From a bacterium (lineage in GTDB: Bacteria > Joyebacterota > Joyebacteria > Joyebacterales > Joyebacteraceae), in assembly GCA_025774245.1 (NCBI GenBank), contig JALGWI010000005.1, positions 1 to 64,000 on the forward strand: a stretch of DNA of 64,000 bases. Direction: 5' to 3'. Shown one piece after another: positions 47,328 to 56,143 of the stretch (positions are counted from its first letter, which is position 1; each line of letters begins with the position of its first letter). The notes beneath the pieces were generated by a model. It did not search any database. It had not been told where the DNA came from and was given only the letters and a program-made list of their open reading frames with translations. The translations under genes and the position numbers were made by a program.

Positions 47328-47353
47328 GCGGCGGGCCCCTTGGGGTCCGCCGC
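47328..47353. terminator. GC-rich bidirectional terminator
   Basis: GCGGCGGGCCCC / GGGGTCCGCCGC, 12 pairs with one G-T wobble and a tight TT loop, between the convergent GNAT gene and the membrane cluster. TTGGTTT follows on the plus strand. Confidence 0.7.
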
Positions 47354-47406: not shown

Positions 47407-48042
47407 CTAGTCGATGACGTGAAGGAGATCGGAAAAGAGGAAGTAGAGCCTCCCGATCAGGAGCGAAATACGCGCCATGAGCGTGTAGCCGAACGAGGCG
47501 CCGAAGCTGATCATGATGAAGACGATCCCGACCTTCGCGGCCCACCCGAGGACGCCCTTGTGGGGCTTCGAGAAGTAGAAGTAGAGGATCGTCGTCACGA
47601 CCCCGACCACCAGGACCAGGTTGTTCAGGCTCACCAGGTTGAAGCCGGTCATCGGCAGGAGCGTCGCCTGGAGCTGCGGCACGACGTAGCCCTGGATGTT
47701 GGCCGTGATGCCGAGGCCGGCGCCGACGCCGACGGTGAAGGCGATCGGCCAGCGCGAGAGCCACGCGATCTTCGGGAACCAGCGCGACAGCATGATGACG
47801 CCGAGGGCGGCGGGCACGAGGAGTATCCACCTCTCGAGCCCCGTCTCGGTCATGAACGTCTCGACGAGCATCGGCTCGACGTCGAAGAAGGCGACGTAGA
47901 TGAGCCAGTAGCCGGCCGAGACGCCGACGTACACGTGCTCGGCGAGCTTGTAGAACGGGTTGTCCTTGTAGAGGAACGAGAGGATCGCGAGGGTCAGAAA
48001 CCCCGCGAGCCACGTTCCGATCATGATGCCGAGCGAACCCAT
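47407..48042 (-). CDS. membrane-cluster protein D, multi-helix
   Basis: 211 residues with about six or seven hydrophobic helices: MIGTWLAGFLTLAILSFLY, VYVGVSAGYWLIYVAFF, WILLVPAALGVIMLS, PIAFTVGVGAGLGITANI, NLVLVVGVVTTILYFYF and IVFIMISFGASFGYTLM among them. I recognise no family. The last gene of four in the same direction (34 bases after the next one's stop). The ATG 48042 was chosen because the helices begin there; GGGAGA lies upstream, a weak ribosome site. An in-frame ATG at 48144 gives a charged leader that is unlikely. Function unknown. Confidence 0.75.
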   Translation of the reverse strand: MGSLGIMIGTWLAGFLTLAILSFLYKDNPFYKLAEHVYVGVSAGYWLIYVAFFDVEPMLVETFMTETGLERWILLVPAALGVIMLSRWFPKIAWLSRWPIAFTVGVGAGLGITANIQGYVVPQLQATLLPMTGFNLVSLNNLVLVVGVVTTILYFYFSKPHKGVLGWAAKVGIVFIMISFGASFGYTLMARISLLIGRLYFLFSDLLHVID

Positions 48043-48076
48043 CCCGCTGGTCTCCCGTCGACTGCGCCCCTGCCGC

Positions 48077-48934
48077 TTACGCGGCCCCGCCGGCCGCCTT
48101 CCGCTTCCGCCTCGTGAAGAAGTACCCGAGGTTCCCCATGACAATGAACCCGATCACGAGGAGGTGTCCCCACTCCTGCGCGGGCATTCCCCGCGTCCCG
48201 AGTCCCGGCTGCCCGATCAGGGTCTCGTACTCCGCGGCGCCCTTCAGGCCCCCCACGAGCCCCTCGATCTGACCCGACTGGAGGTACGGGTACGCGTCGG
48301 GCGCCATGACGGCGGTCGTGCCGAAGGTCATCCTCTGGTCGAACCGTGCCTGCGCGTAACGTACCCAGTAGTCGATAACGGCCCCGTGCTCGAACCCGAA
48401 GAGGAGGTCGATGTCCGAGTACGAATGCAGGTCCTTCGTGATGGGCATCTCCCGGATCGGGGTGCCCTGGTAGTCGGTTCCGAAGATGTCCTCGATCTCC
48501 CGGCCCATCGCGATCATCACGGCGATGTAGCCCGGCCGGTATCCGAGGTCGACGTAGTCGACGCCGTACTCGGCGTCGTACTCGGCGGCGATCTGCTCGA
48601 GCGCCGCGTGTCCGAGCGGGAGGCCGATCGCGATGTGGCCGAGCATGACGACCTTCACCTCCTTCTCGAACGCCTGTCTGAGGACCGAGTGGAGCATCGG
48701 CATGAGCTCCGGCGCGGAGGTCGCGTCGAAGTCGATCGAGACCATGAGGTAGTCGCCGGCCTCGAGCGTCTCCACGGACTCGTGGGCGCTGATGACCGGC
48801 GCCGTCGGAGGGATCTCACTACCGACGCTGATGAGGAGGGGGATCGCGACGACCACGCCGAGGATCACAAAGATGATCCTCCGGTCGATGTCGTCCATGA
48901 CCTCCCAGAAACTTCTCTTGCCCCGCTCTTCCAC
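48077..48934 (-). CDS. membrane-cluster protein C, two-helix with large exposed domain
   Basis: 285 residues. One helix near the N terminus (about 20-38), a hydrophilic domain (about 40-250) and one helix near the C terminus (about 256-273), then a basic tail RRKRKAAGG. The exposed domain alternates strands and helices (VVMLGHIAIGLPLGHAALEQ, YVDLGYRPGYIAVMIAMG, MTFGTTAVMAPDAYPYLQ), suggesting a Rossmann-like sheet. No family recognised. Central member of a four-gene operon of unknown function. Confidence 0.75.
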   Translation of the reverse strand: MEERGKRSFWEVMDDIDRRIIFVILGVVVAIPLLISVGSEIPPTAPVISAHESVETLEAGDYLMVSIDFDATSAPELMPMLHSVLRQAFEKEVKVVMLGHIAIGLPLGHAALEQIAAEYDAEYGVDYVDLGYRPGYIAVMIAMGREIEDIFGTDYQGTPIREMPITKDLHSYSDIDLLFGFEHGAVIDYWVRYAQARFDQRMTFGTTAVMAPDAYPYLQSGQIEGLVGGLKGAAEYETLIGQPGLGTRGMPAQEWGHLLVIGFIVMGNLGYFFTRRKRKAAGGAA

Positions 48935-48979
48935 CGAAACGATCCTCCGGCGGCGGCCCCGTTGCCGCCGCGCATCCGA

Positions 48980-49612
48980 CTACGAGAGGTAGCTCCTCTC
49001 GATCCCGAGAATGATCCGAAGCGACATCGAGACCGCGCCGAGCGCGGCCCCGATCTGGATCCCCCGCTTCGCCGCGAGCTGTGGGAACTCCATGATCCAC
49101 TCCTGCGCCCACGGGAAGAACGGCGAGATGGCGGCGCCGATCGGTATCCTGCCGAGCATGACGATCACGGCCGAGACCAGCAGGAGCGTCGCGACCCAGT
49201 TCCTCGCGCGGAAGGCGCGGTACGACGCCGAGGCGATGAAGAACGCGAGGAGCGCGAACATCGTCGCCTGGAGCGGCACGATCGTGTACGTGTAGATGAA
49301 CATGAAGGGCGACTGGATGTGGAACGGGCTTCCGTACTGGACGCGCCCGAGGATGCCGACGACGACCGTAGCGACGAGCCCGACGAGGAGCGCGGCGCTG
49401 TGCCCCCAGCCGCCCTGGGCTCTCGCGACCTTGCGAACGTGCGCGCGGATCAGGCTGTCGACCCCGAGGAGCATCGTGAAGCCGGCGACGATGGCGAACC
49501 AGATGAGGAGCCTCTGCTCGAGCTCGCCGAACGGGGAGTGGGGGACGAAGAACGAGACGACGAGGAAGGTCCCCGTGAGAAACGTGATGATGAGCGGCAC
49601 CGTCCGCTTCAT
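48980..49612 (-). CDS. membrane-cluster protein B, multi-helix
   Basis: 210 residues, about six hydrophobic helices spread evenly, with short polar loops; KVARAQGGWGHSA and SPFHIQSPFMFIYTY stand out as conserved-looking loops. The start is supported by its place 19 bases after the stop of the DUF6754 gene. No family recognised. A helix bundle that may anchor or gate the two exposed-domain partners; this is inference. Confidence 0.75.
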   Translation of the reverse strand: MKRTVPLIITFLTGTFLVVSFFVPHSPFGELEQRLLIWFAIVAGFTMLLGVDSLIRAHVRKVARAQGGWGHSAALLVGLVATVVVGILGRVQYGSPFHIQSPFMFIYTYTIVPLQATMFALLAFFIASASYRAFRARNWVATLLLVSAVIVMLGRIPIGAAISPFFPWAQEWIMEFPQLAAKRGIQIGAALGAVSMSLRIILGIERSYLS

Positions 49613-49631
49613 GGCGCGTCCTCTGACGGCA

Positions 49632-50870
49632 TCAGTTGAACCAGGACTTCACGAACTCGAAGATCTTCGTGAGCGCCGAACCCCCGTCCGCGCTCACCAT
49701 GTACCCGACCGTTCCCACGACGACCGCGAGGATGATCACGTAGACGATCCAGAGCTTCGTGAGATCCTGCCCCTTCAGGCTCCCGAGCATCACGGGCTCG
49801 CGCGAGAGGTAGCTCGAAGCGGCGAACAGCTCCTCGCCGATCAGCGTGTAGTCGCACGCCGCCACGAAGAACGGAAGCTGCGAGGTCTCCTTCGTCCCTG
49901 CGATCTGGATGGCGCCGATCGAGTGGCCGGTCTCCGCGAGAATGAGCGACTCGGCGTAGAAGGTGCCGATGAGGAAGACCGCCTCCGGCCGGTCGCGGAG
50001 CATCATGCCGTTGACGCCGGCGGTGTAGCCGAACTGGTCGTACGTCAGATACGCGACGCGGGACGGATCGTACTCGTCGGGCCTCCCGACCTCCGCGTAG
50101 GACGCCTTAACGATCTCCTGCGCCGTCGCCATGACGATGGGATCGGCGCACGGCACGTGGAGCGGCGTCCCGTGACGCGCGACGCGCTTCGCCACGTGTC
50201 CGAGGATCGTGAGCGCGGCGAGCGTCCCGACCTCGGTCACGAGCTCGATTCCGGGGACGAAGAGCACGGGGCGCCCCATCTCGGTGGCGCGCCCGACGGC
50301 GTCGTCGACGGCCTCGAGGCCGGGGATCTCCCTGATGAAGAGCTCGCCGCCCTTCTTGGCCCGCTGGATGTAGAACAGAACGGCGCCGCAGAAGAGGGCC
50401 GCGATGACGAGGACGCCCAGGCGGCTCTTCGCGAACCACTGGGCGCTCGAGACGGCGGCGGGCGAGGGCTCGGAGTCGGTGTGGCCGAACGGCGTCCGCG
50501 TCCTGACGACGTACTGGTAGCTCGTTCCGTCCTCGGTGTTCGAGTCGGTGTACTCGGTGTCGGTCGCGGGAACCTCGCCGATCGACGCGGGCTCCTCGCC
50601 GGGAGCGTAGCGAAGGACGTCGAAGCCGAGAATCTCGTCCTCCCTGCCGCCGGGATCCGTAAGCTCCCACGTGACGAGAATCGATCCGCCACCGTCCTCG
50701 GGAGCGTCCTCGGCGGAGACGGCGCAGGCGATCGGGAGGGGAGGGCCGCCTTCGGCGGACGGGTCTCCCTGTGCGAAGGCGTCCCCACCCGAAAGGGTGA
50801 GGACGCCCAGAATGAGCACAACGGTGAGCGGATGGACCCGCGCGGTTCTGTCGGCGCCGAAGAAGCGCAC
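49632..50870 (-). CDS. DUF6754 membrane protein with fibronectin-like domain
   Basis: 412 residues. A signal-like hydrophobic stretch (about 14-33) is followed by an FN3-like domain (about 48-135, with FDVLRY and TSYQYVVRT). A helix at about 150-165 comes next, then a conserved domain starting at KKGGELFIREIPGLEAVDDAVGRATEMGRPVLFVPG, the DUF6754 signature. A final helix lies at about 368-392. GTG 50870 follows AGGAGA by nine bases; the longer in-frame start is basic and lacks a ribosome site. First gene of the cluster; function unknown. Confidence 0.8.
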   Translation of the reverse strand: MRFFGADRTARVHPLTVVLILGVLTLSGGDAFAQGDPSAEGGPPLPIACAVSAEDAPEDGGGSILVTWELTDPGGREDEILGFDVLRYAPGEEPASIGEVPATDTEYTDSNTEDGTSYQYVVRTRTPFGHTDSEPSPAAVSSAQWFAKSRLGVLVIAALFCGAVLFYIQRAKKGGELFIREIPGLEAVDDAVGRATEMGRPVLFVPGIELVTEVGTLAALTILGHVAKRVARHGTPLHVPCADPIVMATAQEIVKASYAEVGRPDEYDPSRVAYLTYDQFGYTAGVNGMMLRDRPEAVFLIGTFYAESLILAETGHSIGAIQIAGTKETSQLPFFVAACDYTLIGEELFAASSYLSREPVMLGSLKGQDLTKLWIVYVIILAVVVGTVGYMVSADGGSALTKIFEFVKSWFN

Positions 50871-50922: not shown

Positions 50923-52287
50923 CTAGAGCGCCTTGATCGTGCCGTCGAGCGCCTCGAGTCCCTCGTCGATCTCGCCGGCACTGACCGTGAGCGGCGGTCT
51001 GAAGCGCACCGTCACGGCCCCGCACGGGAGCGCGATCGTTCCCTTCTCGCGGAGCTTGGCGAGCGCCTCGTCGCGCATCTCGGTCGACGGGAGGTCGAAC
51101 GCGCACATGAGCCCGCGGCCCCTGACGTTCGACATCTTGTCGCCCGTCGCCGAAGCCACGGCAGCCAGGCCGTCCAGAAGCCGCTTCCCCATCGAGGCCG
51201 CGTTGTCGAGGAGGTTCTCCTCGTCGATGATCTCGAGGTAACGCTGGCAGCGGACCATGTCTACCAGGTTCCCGCCCCAGGTCGAGTTGATTCTCGAGGA
51301 GACCTCGAACACATTCCCCTCGACCTCCTTGACGCGGTCGGAGACCATGATGCCGCAGATCTGCGTCTTCTTCCCGAAGCAGAGGATGTCCGGCAGGGCG
51401 CCGAGCTGCTCGCAGGCCCACATCGTTCCCGTGAGTCCCATGCCCGTCTGGATCTCGTCGAAGATGAGCATGATCTCGTTCTCGTCGGCGACCTTCCGGA
51501 GCGCCTTGATGAACTCGGGACGGAAGTGGTTGTCGCCGCCCTCGCCCTGGATCGGCTCGATGAGGATGGCGGCGATGTCGTCGGGGTGCTCTTCGATGGC
51601 CGTCGCGATCTGGCCCAGGGCCTTCTCCTCGGAGGCCTTCACCTGCTCGACGTTCTCCCCCTCCATCGGGAACCGCATCTTCGGAGTCAGGATTCGCGGC
51701 CAGTCGAACTTGGGGAAGTACTGGGTCTTCCGGGGATCGAACGTGTTCGTGAGCGACAGCGTGTACCCGCTCCGCCCGTGGAACGCCTGCTCGAAGTGGA
51801 TCACCTTCGACCCGCGAAGGAGAGCCTCCGGCGTGTCCTGCTGGTTGATCCCCTTCTCCATATTCTTCCGGACCTTCCAGTCGAACGCGGTCTTGAGGGC
51901 GTTCTCGACGGAGAGCGCGCCGCCGCTCACGAAGAACAGGTTCTTGAGGACCGGCGTCGCCGCGAGCCTTCCGAACGTGTCGACGAACTCCGCCATCTCG
52001 GTCGTGTAGAGGTCCGAGTTGGCCGGCTTGTTCACCGCCACCCTCCCGAGCTTCTGCACGAACTCGGGCGTCGTCATCTTCGGGTGGTTGAACCCGATCG
52101 GCGACGAGGCGAAGCAGGTGAAGAAGTCGAGATACCTCTTCCCGCCCCGCGAGTCGAACATGTAGCTGCCCTTGCTCTTGTCGAGATCGAAGACGACGTC
52201 GAAGCCGTCGGCGAGCATGTGCGCGCCGATCACGGTGTGGACCCTGTCGGGCGTGACGGTCCTGGTATTGGTGCGCGTCTCGGTCAC
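50923..52287 (-). CDS. lat: L-lysine 6-aminotransferase
   Basis: PLP-dependent class III aminotransferase converting lysine and 2-oxoglutarate to alpha-aminoadipate semialdehyde and glutamate. 454 residues. FDSRGGKRYLDFFTCFASSPIGFNHP opens like the characterised lysine epsilon-aminotransferases. IEPIQGEGGDNHF and FDEIQTGMGLTG carry the PLP-binding Asp, and GKKTQ carries the Schiff-base Lys. The product cyclises to piperideine-6-carboxylate. GTG 52287 follows GGAGG by six bases. No dedicated aminoadipate-semialdehyde dehydrogenase adjoins; the P5C dehydrogenase at 7537 might stand in. Confidence 0.92.
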   Translation of the reverse strand: MTETRTNTRTVTPDRVHTVIGAHMLADGFDVVFDLDKSKGSYMFDSRGGKRYLDFFTCFASSPIGFNHPKMTTPEFVQKLGRVAVNKPANSDLYTTEMAEFVDTFGRLAATPVLKNLFFVSGGALSVENALKTAFDWKVRKNMEKGINQQDTPEALLRGSKVIHFEQAFHGRSGYTLSLTNTFDPRKTQYFPKFDWPRILTPKMRFPMEGENVEQVKASEEKALGQIATAIEEHPDDIAAILIEPIQGEGGDNHFRPEFIKALRKVADENEIMLIFDEIQTGMGLTGTMWACEQLGALPDILCFGKKTQICGIMVSDRVKEVEGNVFEVSSRINSTWGGNLVDMVRCQRYLEIIDEENLLDNAASMGKRLLDGLAAVASATGDKMSNVRGRGLMCAFDLPSTEMRDEALAKLREKGTIALPCGAVTVRFRPPLTVSAGEIDEGLEALDGTIKAL

Positions 52288-52413
52288 TTCGTGCCTCCGT
52301 GTCGAAAAGGGGATTCGCCCCGAGCTTGGGCGACCGCAGCCCCCGGGGCGCGAACTCGGGGCACGCACGCCGTCGGGGGAGAAACGTCGGCCCTCACGGG
52401 CCGCAAACACCCT

Positions 52414-52527: not shown

Positions 52528-53523
52528 TCAGCGTTCTCGCGGGTCGCCGGGGGATCGGGCGTCGGTTCCGATGCCCTCGCGGGAAGGGTCTTCGTCCCGC
52601 GGGGCCCGGCGTGGAAAGAGCAGCTGCAGGAGCGCCGGCGCGACCGGCTGCGAGGCGAGCCTGGCGGGGATCTCCTCGGGCGCGAGGATCCCGTCCTCGG
52701 TGACGACGCCGCGGACGAGGGAGAGGGGCGTCCTCTCGAAGTAGCGGTTCTCCACGGCGACGCCGGCCGGCCGCTCCTCCATGAGCTCGCGCTCGTCCAT
52801 GAGGCGGCCGGTGCCTCCCCGGAGCGCGCTCGGGAGGAGCTTGTCCGAGAGGGCGGCGACGTAGACGGGGACGTCCTTCTCCTTGGCGACCAGCGCGAGC
52901 GGGTACGTGCCGACCTTGTTGACGAAGTCGGTCTCCGAGACGCTGCCCGATCCCACCAGCACGAGCCCGCAGCGATCGAGGAGGTCGGGGAGGGCCGCGT
53001 CGGCGACGACCGTGACGGGGATGTCCCACGCCGGGAGGCTCCCCGCGAACTCGACGCCCTCGCGCCCCGGGCGCGACTCGGCGACGACCACGCGAAACTC
53101 GGTCCCGCTTGCCGCCGCCTGTACGAGGATCGCGCGGACGCTCTCGCTCGCGCCGAGCGTGGCGATCGTGCCGTCGGCCGGCACGAGTGGCGCGCCCTTC
53201 TTCCCGAGGCTCTCGAGGTCCGCGTCGGCGAACTCCCAGGCCTCGTTGCACTGCATGAAGACCGCGCGACGGGCGACCTCGGGCGAGAGCCCCGAGAGGA
53301 CCATCCTCTCCGCGGAGGAGAGGACCCTGCCGACCAGATTCACGATCGACGCCATCTCGCGCTTCGCGTCGATGAGCTCGCGGCACGCGTCGAGAAGCTC
53401 GTCCCAGAACGAGCCCGGGTCGCCGGCGTCGGAGGTCTCCGCCATCTCGGCGAGCCTCCTGGCCGCGAGCCCCGTCAGAACGGTTGCGCTCGAGCGCGAA
53501 TCCTGTGCGATGTCTTCGAACAC
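52528..53523 (-). CDS. eIF-2B/methylthioribose-1-phosphate isomerase-family protein
   Basis: 331 residues of the IF-2B fold, with an N-terminal helical part and a nucleotide-like C-terminal part (VLVGSGSVSETDFVNKVGTYPLALVAKEKDVPVYVAA). This family covers eIF-2B subunits, MtnA and ribose-1,5-bisphosphate isomerase. The active-site Cys/Asp pattern of MtnA is not clearly present, so a sugar-phosphate isomerase or a ligand-binding homologue are both possible. It starts 68 bases after the last ABC permease and may share its transcript. Confidence 0.75.
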   Translation of the reverse strand: MFEDIAQDSRSSATVLTGLAARRLAEMAETSDAGDPGSFWDELLDACRELIDAKREMASIVNLVGRVLSSAERMVLSGLSPEVARRAVFMQCNEAWEFADADLESLGKKGAPLVPADGTIATLGASESVRAILVQAAASGTEFRVVVAESRPGREGVEFAGSLPAWDIPVTVVADAALPDLLDRCGLVLVGSGSVSETDFVNKVGTYPLALVAKEKDVPVYVAALSDKLLPSALRGGTGRLMDERELMEERPAGVAVENRYFERTPLSLVRGVVTEDGILAPEEIPARLASQPVAPALLQLLFPRRAPRDEDPSREGIGTDARSPGDPRER

Positions 53524-53591: not shown

Positions 53592-54845
53592 TCACGCGTA
53601 CTTCGACATTGCCTCGATCGGATCGAGCCTCGAGGCCTTGATAGCGGGATAGAGGCCGAACAGGATCCCGACGCCGACGGCGAAGGAGAGGCCGAGGATG
53701 ATCCCGGTGCCGGACACGGGGATGAAGATGTCCTGGCCCATCTGCTGCGCGCCGAACGTCATGAGCTTCGTGAGCCCCACGCCGAGCGCGACGCCGACCA
53801 GGCCTCCGAACACGCTGATCGTCACGGACTCGATCAGGAACTGCTGGAAGATGGCGCGGTCCTCCGCGCCCACGGCCTTCCTGATCCCGATCTCGCGCAG
53901 CCGCTCGTTCACGGAGATGATGAGGACCGAGAGGAGACCGATGCCGCCGACGAGGAGCGAGACCGTCGCGATCGTCGAGAGGATGCCGTTCCACGTGTTG
54001 ACGATCTGCTGGACGTCCTGTCTCGCCCGGAGAATCTCCTCGGCCACGTTCTCGATCTGGAAGTCCTCGATCTGGCGGTGCTCCCGCATGAGCGTGCTGT
54101 GGATCTTCTCGTAGCCGGTCGCGAGGTCGGCGTCGCTCTTGAGCCTGACGGCGAAGTAGGCGATCCGTTTCGTCCCGGAGATGTAGTACATGCCAGCGGT
54201 GATGGGGATGTAGACGCGCTGGTGCTCCTCCTCCTGCCCGGAGCCCCCGAACATGTCGCTGAAATCCTTCTGCTGGAGGACGCCCACCACCTTGAAGTGC
54301 TCGTCGCCGATCAGGATGTCCTCGCCGACCGCGTTCGCGTCGCCGAAGAGGTCCTCCTTCACGATCTCGCCCAGGACGGCCACGCGCGCGTTGTTCTCGA
54401 CGTCGATGTCGGAGAGGAAGCGTCCCTGGCCGAGCTCGAACTTGAGGAGGTAGAACCCGTCCGGGGTCGCGGCGAAGATCTCCGCGCGGCGCGCCTCGCT
54501 ACCGGCCCGCACGACCCTGTAGTCCGCGACGACGGGCGTGATGCCGAGGATCTCGTCGACCTCCGCGCGCAGGATCTCGGTGTCCTCGAACGAGAGCCCC
54601 TTCGAGGCCTTGAGGCGCGCGTAGCCTTCGGGGTTGACCGGGCGCATGTTGCCGACGAAGAGCACATTGTCGAGGCCGAGCTTGTCGAAGTCCTCCCAGA
54701 TCCGCCCCGCGATGCCCCCGACGAACGAGGTCATCGCGACGACGGCGGCGACGCCCACGACGATGCCGAAGAGCGTGAGCCCCGACCGCAGTTTGTGGGA
54801 CCGGATGGACGCGAGGCCGCTCGCGATGCTCTCGAGGATGTTCAC
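53592..54845 (-). CDS. ABC transporter permease 2 (MacB/FtsX type)
   Basis: 417 residues. An N-terminal helix, a periplasmic MacB_PCD-like domain (about 40-250), then three helices at the end with NERLREIGIRKAVGAEDR and the FtsX C-terminal pattern (FGLYPAIKASRLDPIEAM). Third permease/ATPase component of the operon that starts at 58030, and not a duplicate of permease 1 in sequence. ATPase, adaptor and both permeases likely form a tripartite-type exporter. Confidence 0.9.
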   Translation of the reverse strand: MNILESIASGLASIRSHKLRSGLTLFGIVVGVAAVVAMTSFVGGIAGRIWEDFDKLGLDNVLFVGNMRPVNPEGYARLKASKGLSFEDTEILRAEVDEILGITPVVADYRVVRAGSEARRAEIFAATPDGFYLLKFELGQGRFLSDIDVENNARVAVLGEIVKEDLFGDANAVGEDILIGDEHFKVVGVLQQKDFSDMFGGSGQEEEHQRVYIPITAGMYYISGTKRIAYFAVRLKSDADLATGYEKIHSTLMREHRQIEDFQIENVAEEILRARQDVQQIVNTWNGILSTIATVSLLVGGIGLLSVLIISVNERLREIGIRKAVGAEDRAIFQQFLIESVTISVFGGLVGVALGVGLTKLMTFGAQQMGQDIFIPVSGTGIILGLSFAVGVGILFGLYPAIKASRLDPIEAMSKYA

Positions 54846-54910
54846 TGCGCGACTCCCGTGGTTTCAGTTGGACGGGCCCGCCGGAGATCGAGCGTCGGCG
54901 GCGAGGCTGA

Positions 54911-56143
54911 CTACTGGTACCTGAGCGCTTCTACCGGGTCGAGCCTGGCCGCCCGAATGGCCGGGAAGAGCCCGAAGATGACACCGACGGCGACGGAGCA
55001 TCCGAACGCGATCAGGAGGATGCCGGGTGTGACGGCGGTCGGCATGTTCAGCACCTTGTCGGTCAGTGCGACCATGCCGAGGCCCAGGAGGATCCCGAGG
55101 GCGCCTCCCGACGCCGTGACCACGAGCGCCTCGACCAGGAACTGGATGAAGACGTCGCGGCTGCTCGCCCCGATCGCCTTTCTCACACCGATCTCGCGGA
55201 TCCTCTCCGTGATCGACGCGAGCATGATGTTCGCGATCACGACGCCGCCCACGAAGAGCGAGACGAACGCGACGGCCCAGAAGATGATATTGAAGAAGGC
55301 CTCCTGCTCGTTCCGCTGCCGGATCTGATCGGACTTCGACTCGACGTTGAAGTCCTCGACGCCGTGTCGTCTGAGGAGAACCCTGTTCGCCTCCTCGGTC
55401 AGCGCCGGAACGGCCTCGATCGTCGTCGCGCTGATCTCGAGACCGTCGAGACGGTCGTTGACCGTGAACCGTCTGACCATCGTCGTGATGGGGATGTAGT
55501 GGCTTCTGTTGAACCACTCGAGGACGTTTCGATCGCTCCCCCCGCTCCCCTCGAAGTAGAACTCCTTCTTCTGCATGATCCCGACGACCTCGAAGGGAAT
55601 CCCCTCGATCGTGATCGTCTTCCCGATCGCCTCCTCCTCGCCGAAGAGGTCCTCCTTGTACGTCGGTCCCATCATGACGACGTTCGCGTAGTTCTCGCAG
55701 TCCTTGTCCGTGATGAAGCGTCCCTCGGCGACCGGCATGTTGTCCGCGTGCGGGTAGTCGCGGTTCGTGCCGAGCACCTTCATCTGGAACGTCTTCTCGC
55801 CGTACGCGACGGCGAGGAACTCCGTGATCTCGGGATCGACCGTGAGGACCGACGGGCACTCGCGCCGGATCGCCTGCGCGTCACGGTAGGTGAGGCGCTC
55901 GGAGGCGCGCTCGGCCGCGGTCTGGAAGATGTCGTGGCTGTGCTGATTCGTGATACGAAGCTCGCGGAGGCCGCCCATCTCGTCGAAGAAGTCCTCGGTC
56001 TGCTTCTCTCCTCCGCGCATGAGGGAGAGGACGGCAACGACGGATGCCGTGCCGAGCACGATACCGACGATCGTGATCACCGCGCGGCCCTTGTGGCTCG
56101 CCATGTCCCGGGCCCCGGCGCCGACGCTCTCGAGCAGGTTCAC
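54911..56143 (-). CDS. ABC transporter permease 1 (MacB/FtsX type)
   Basis: 410 residues with the same layout as permease 2: N-terminal helix, large periplasmic domain (about 50-280) and three C-terminal helices, with [19 protein letters not shown] and [21 protein letters not shown] at the end. GTG start overlaps the ATPase stop by four bases (GTGA), so tight coupling. The second permease follows after 65 bases. Confidence 0.9.

Follow-up and report, generated by a model that had tools for sequence, protein, structure and literature searches.

A conserved four-gene bacterial membrane module containing DUF6754 and its candidate MutL-type ATPase partner

The subject of this work is a group of four minus-strand genes, designated A, B, C and D, found in a 64,000-nucleotide stretch of bacterial DNA (positions 1 to 64,000 of contig JALGWI010000005.1, assembly GCA_025774245.1, from a member of the Joyebacteraceae), the whole of which is referred to here as the window. 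A first-pass annotation, made from the letters alone, had singled out these genes as a possible undescribed membrane complex built around DUF6754, a notion that is supported by the analysis presented below: the gene order is kept across genomes, the parts co-occur almost perfectly, and the searches with B, C and D lead to no known pathway. What had been missed is that this operon is one of three in its genome, that a MutL-type ATPase and a further protein, E, are encoded elsewhere, and that the sides of the membrane to which the soluble domains of A and C are assigned differ. We consider it very probable that A, B, C, D, MutL and E constitute one functional system, to which two additional small proteins, Y2 and Y1, probably belong. 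The reading that we favor, with a probability of roughly one in three (0.35), is that ABCD forms the membrane part of a larger machine, which would include the cytosolic MutL (an ASKHA ATPase), E and Y2, together with the small membrane protein Y1, and which would act as an ATP-driven mover of solutes.

Conservation of the gene order and inheritance as a module

For this analysis, 290 genomes were sampled across Bacteria (almost wholly POTRA-bearing bacteria), 60 neighborhoods were taken, and all their open reading frames were searched with iterated profiles for the four proteins. A genes were counted by their stop codon over the distant and near loci, gene calls in the high-GC loci being mechanical. 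The first-pass annotation had proposed conservation of gene order across genomes as a check, and this was passed: for 82 of 92 A genes, B, C and D come next, in this order and on the strand that carries A. Neither of the contrary outcomes considered there, namely random neighbors or a confident match of B, C or D to a known unrelated pathway (searched in Pfam and NCBIfam), was encountered. The ten exceptions consist of three modules cut by a contig end (in loci L100, L117 and L125), four extra A copies lying beside a full module (L053, L100, L121 and L127) and three solitary A genes (L096, L103 and L149); the genome of L103 carries a C gene elsewhere on the chromosome (L172). As the four genes turn up, identically ordered, in dozens of other families, they are not chance open reading frames. 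Across loci, the median A-B, B-C and C-D gaps are 12, -1 and 1 bases, and such short distances point to a single transcript and tight coupling.

These genes are also inherited together. The distance matrices of A, B, C and D, calculated over 82 modules, correlate with values of 0.59-0.78, compared with a permutation maximum of 0.15, and at loci with several modules the same-module pairing was better than the swapped one in 90 of 96 comparisons; since the genomes are related, these figures are non-independent and should be taken as descriptive, not as calibrated probabilities. C alone is expanded at L122 (3263-8237), where four C genes stand beside a single A, B and D, while L100 is a crowded contig, with several successive ABCD modules plus an extra A, in a genome (G119) that yields six A matches. 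No carriage of the system on plasmids was found.

Architecture and predicted topology of the four proteins

Gene A (49632-50870, minus strand, GTG start) encodes 412 residues, arranged as the first-pass annotation had read them: a signal peptide (about 14-33), a fibronectin type III (FN3) domain (about 48-132), predicted to be extracytoplasmic, a transmembrane helix (148-172), the alpha/beta DUF6754 domain (about 176-366), predicted to be cytoplasmic, and a C-terminal transmembrane helix (359-392). The protein is a full-length member of DUF6754 (PF20539), aligning with positions 2-250 of the 257 in the profile (E 7.7e-114; 379.6 bits versus a cut-off of 27). The FN3 match lies under the Pfam cut-off (18.4 vs 25 bits); the fold is nevertheless borne out by the comparison of the family profile with solved FN3 chains (E 4e-16) and by a Foldseek search with the AlphaFold model, which matched FN3 structures. 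In fact, the matches in the fold search of A were taken up by its FN3 part. A proteins of about 910-1010 residues, in which a long exported N-terminal arm replaces the single FN3 domain, are found at L117, L127, L131, L138 and L094.

B (48980-49612, minus, 210 residues) and D (47407-48042, minus, 211 residues) had been described as multi-helix proteins, and each of them indeed shows about six transmembrane helices, according to hydropathy for both and, for D, to loop charges as well. A six-helix B with both ends inside fits the charge pattern of the loops in 53 relatives, and both B and D may be pictured as forming the membrane core. The idea that B and D are homologous to each other was rejected, as their comparison gave no support to it.

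C (48077-48934, minus, 285 residues) contains transmembrane helices at 18-35 and 245-280 and, between them, a domain (44-244) that is predicted to be extracytoplasmic. The two helices and the exposed position anticipated for this protein were thus retained; the large sheet domain was not, as the AlphaFold2 model shows an alpha/beta domain, made of a helix followed by six strand-helix units. Models of A and C (mean confidence, pLDDT, 90.9 and 94.1, respectively) are in fact alike, with a transmembrane helix, a helix, six strand-helix units and a second transmembrane helix. The two domains would, however, lie on opposite sides. Among 56 relatives of A, lysine and arginine residues average 4.0 past the first transmembrane helix versus 0.7 before it, which places DUF6754 in the cytoplasm and FN3 outside, whereas in 62 relatives of C positive charge is carried by the tails (3.3 and 4.0) but not by the inner flanks, so that the domain is placed outside.

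As the first-pass annotation had stated, no function is assigned to any of the four proteins. The DUF6754 entry describes a domain without function and does not record B, C, D, E, MutL, Y1 or Y2 as its obligate partners, and no paper naming DUF6754 or PF20539 was found in a search that did not extend to subscription papers and preprints. B, C and D, examined with the window proteins and 50-62 relatives each, gave no credible Pfam or NCBIfam match. Sequence searches with C and D found no relative with a solved structure, and the fold search with C returned only weak Rossmann-like matches in the PDB (best E 1e-3, query TM-score about 0.3) and none among viral models. The DUF6754 domain is highly conserved, with 70 positions at 90% or more, including C339, E307, E313, E346 and E347. 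An active site at its strand ends was considered and discarded, as 20 conserved residues were seen there versus 19.2 expected (P 0.46); in C, conserved residues are weakly enriched at the strand ends (P 0.07).

Probable partners of ABCD: MutL, E, Y1 and Y2

An all-against-all comparison of neighbors revealed four more families, Y1, Y2, MutL and E, that immediately precede A at many distant loci. The conserved neighbor set is composed of these four and ABCD only, with no ABC-type ATPase pair or T component. Y1 (about 156 residues) consists of hydrophobic helices followed by a small domain, and Y2 has about 125 residues. MutL, with 600 residues, belongs to PF13941 (E 2.6e-126), and both of its phosphate motifs (DCGSTTTK and DIGGATTD) are intact in each of the 38 copies. 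Among curated families, it comes closest to GlmL and the ornithine Or-4 protein, although it falls under the curated cut-offs (163.3 vs 204.05 bits for TIGR01319 and 225.1 vs 475 bits for NF040745). It therefore shares with the GlmL/MutL family (PF13941; glmL_fam in NCBIfam) the ASKHA fold and the intact phosphate motifs, and differs from it in its size (about 600 vs about 460 residues), in the lack of a B12 mutase beside it and in being fused to E in paralogues. Our search of the literature on GlmL/MutL retrieved nothing useful.

Nine genes encode MutL-E fusions of about 880-1030 residues, which corroborates that both proteins act together. In these genes (L152-L160; for instance, L157:7132-10089 and L160:6878-9925), MutL is N-terminal and E is C-terminal. 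Each stands by itself, the contexts being varied, and the genomes concerned have separate MutL and E genes as well; the pair is possibly put to another, independent use here. Y2, MutL and E can also form a cluster of their own, away from any ABCD module (L161).

E (375 residues) resembles barrel-sandwich domains in its N-terminal part, and a KOW motif is present in some members. The best match of that part, to RnfC_N (E 9.4e-6), followed by NqrA_N (1.1e-4), raised the idea of a divergent Rnf/Nqr redox pump, in which E would stand for RnfC/NqrA, B and D (some 210 residues and six helices each) for the paired six-helix subunits, and C for an outside subunit. This is largely refuted and, in our view, most improbable: there are no conserved cysteine clusters in any of the conserved families (conserved columns contain no cysteine in E and one in A), and no conserved Fe-S cysteines, E scores far under the rnfC cut-off (12.4 vs 245.95 bits), the cluster includes no redox enzyme, and Rnf_Nqr does not appear among the families listed for members of B and D (in the case of B, 25 of 41 weak families). 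In addition, the present system contains an ATPase and a KOW-like C-terminus that Rnf/Nqr lacks.

When the PADLOC models were searched, no match was obtained at E 0.01 for A-D, E, MutL, Y1 or Y2, and an anti-phage defense system was accordingly rejected.

Co-occurrence, copy number and the alternatives on which they bear

A was detected in 88 of the 290 genomes and C in 88, with 86 containing both. E is present in 83 genomes, 82 of which have A, and the exception, G226, is a marginal match; the distribution of the long MutL is almost identical. PF13941 is found in 102 genomes, a figure that includes shorter GlmL-type proteins. Outside the window's own family, A occurs in 72 genomes of 56 families, of which 70 have C and 67 have E; several A-positive genomes without E are incomplete. 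In the own-family phylum sample, DUF6754 is present in 20 of 20 genomes, usually in three copies.

These figures bear on the simplest alternative, that the genes share an old order that was never broken and no common function. Some neighbors certainly persist, as illustrated by the glycine cleavage genes upstream of the cluster in several families. Nevertheless, the presence and absence of A and C, and of A and E, match over the 290 genomes even where E or the Y2-MutL-E group lies far from ABCD, and modules are duplicated and inherited whole. Mere co-location, contradicted by the co-occurrence of unlinked parts, is thus hardly credible.

Copy numbers differ between the membrane and the cytosolic parts. 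The genome of the window (G000) harbors three ABCD modules, two of them in tandem (ABCD-ABCD) on contig C15, where the only long MutL and the only E are found beside the tandem pair. Among the 88 genomes with A, 47 yield between two and seven matches to it, while only G005 among the genomes with E departs from a single full-length copy of E. A shared energizer would be expected to show this combination, one cytosolic unit and several membrane modules. Taken together, the intact ATP site, the fusions, the shared genome profile and the copy numbers make it likely that MutL-E drives or remodels ABCD.

Some divergent members were noticed. G110 and G246, of one family, contain a divergent C homolog (E about 1e-28 and 6e-26) with no A detected, possibly belonging to a related but different system. 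G078 and G219 lack POTRA proteins and yet carry very divergent A and E (and, in G078, C as well); at L174, E stands by itself.

The main rival to solute movement is a chaperone or reactivase role for MutL-E. A remodeling or reactivating action on B12 enzymes is ascribed to ASKHA proteins of the GlmL and diol-dehydratase-reactivase families, and ABCD might by the same token be a membrane enzyme that MutL-E remodels or reactivates. The membership of MutL in PF13941, with GlmL and the ornithine Or-4 protein as closest curated relatives, suits this chaperone role, and the strong conservation of DUF6754 noted above would suit an enzyme. Nonetheless, MutL does not reach the GlmL subfamily cut-off, no B12 mutase is conserved beside it in the neighbor comparison, and it would be unusual for one chaperone to attend to as many as seven membrane modules, so that we regard this explanation as possible but rather unlikely.

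A platform for envelope assembly or secretion, with an actin-like MutL acting on a membrane scaffold and the FN3 arm of A binding surface structures, would be another way of combining an ASKHA ATPase, multi-helix membrane proteins and an exported FN3. It can be likened to MreB-MreCD or PilM-PilNO, and the exported arm of A, reaching up to about 650 residues in L117, L127, L131 and L138, would be in keeping with it. The presence of POTRA proteins in nearly all sampled genomes (274 of 290) agrees with it, but such a frequency cannot discriminate, and a link to the outer membrane was dropped for this reason. Furthermore, genes for the cell wall, pili or secretion are not recurrent neighbors of the system, and a single scaffold does not agree with up to seven paralogous modules in one genome. 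This platform seems to us an unlikely one.

Genomic context of the window module

In the window, the genes are separated by 19 (A-B), 45 (B-C) and 34 (C-D) bases, in agreement with the 19-45 range and the coordinates initially given. A G+C-rich hairpin (47328-47353, with no strand assigned) lies between D and the convergent GNAT gene. It comprises 11 pairs and, as minus-strand RNA, has a folding energy of -41.6 kcal/mol (z -4.4). The terminator that had been placed here is thus real as a hairpin; however, the consensus scan called it as a terminator of the GNAT gene, on the plus strand alone, and the scan found three terminator-like sites in that stretch versus 2.9 expected by chance.

Upstream of A, and not part of the core, are an L-lysine 6-transaminase gene (50923-52410, minus strand, 52 bases from A; TIGR03251, 668.7 bits vs a cut-off of 520.8) and, next to it, an IF-2B family gene (52528-53523, minus; PF01008, E 5.6e-38). 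In relatives of the window, the transaminase precedes the corresponding module wherever the locus covers the site, and the IF-2B family gene does so in many close relatives. Two MacB/FtsX-type permease genes (53592-56143), also upstream, are kept alongside the module in close relatives. A lysine 6-transaminase gene is found as well in a distant family, in this case downstream of ABCD (L147, 4485-5834, 618.8 bits). In several families (L004:2367-6150, L109, L115 and L141), glycine cleavage genes are directly upstream of Y1-Y2-MutL-E-ABCD. A lipoate ligase-type gene lies downstream of the cluster in L004 and some others. The neighbors give a weak hint of amino-acid-like solutes; a common metabolic partner beside ABCD was rejected, given the mixed flanks.

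A working model and the evidence against it

In the model that we favor, MutL would hydrolyze ATP and, through E, would dock on whichever ABCD module is present. A conformational cycle might then couple the outside domain of C to the inside domain of A by way of B and D, the most likely outcome being that a small polar organic solute is moved or handed over. That the process is small-solute transport is a guess, with about one chance in three of being right. For the protein, lipid or polysaccharide put forward in the first-pass annotation as the material handled, the results give neither support nor contradiction. The module of the window would be one of three sharing a single MutL-E energizer, as in group II energy-coupling factor (ECF) transporters, in which one shared cytosolic energizing unit serves several separately encoded membrane modules. 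The copy numbers (one E and one to seven A) fit a shared energizer, and the comparison is one of how the parts might work. There are also clear differences from group II ECF transporters: ABC ATPases are absent and MutL is an ASKHA protein, the modules contain four proteins instead of a single S component, and the transport role here is putative.

Several observations weigh against this model. Among the families compared, no protein of the system resembles a known transporter or channel, and the contact of MutL-E with ABCD is a putative one. Despite the similar order of strands and helices, hhalign gave no sequence support for homology between the soluble domains of A and C, and the conserved residues of DUF6754 are not clustered at the strand ends, contrary to what a Rossmann-type binding site would lead one to expect. 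The partnership itself has exceptions: G076, a single contig and hence a real one, has ABCD with neither E nor MutL detected, while G104 and G289 contain a long MutL without ABCD. Lastly, the other genes flanking ABCD are mixed, so the link to lysine may be local.

Significance

We tentatively suggest, while considering it rather improbable, that these genes define an unrecognized class of ATP-driven membrane machine, in which a GlmL-like ASKHA ATPase and a barrel-sandwich adaptor energize interchangeable four-protein modules, so that primary transport or transfer across the membrane would draw on an ATPase of the actin/Hsp70 type and not on an ABC or P-type one. Small, clearly delimited and easily recognized, the gene set is present in about 30% of the 290 genomes, with up to seven A copies, even though only one of its core proteins has a DUF entry. 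If the parts do work together, current annotation overlooks a whole class of membrane machines, and a role at the membrane would be added for the GlmL/MutL family.

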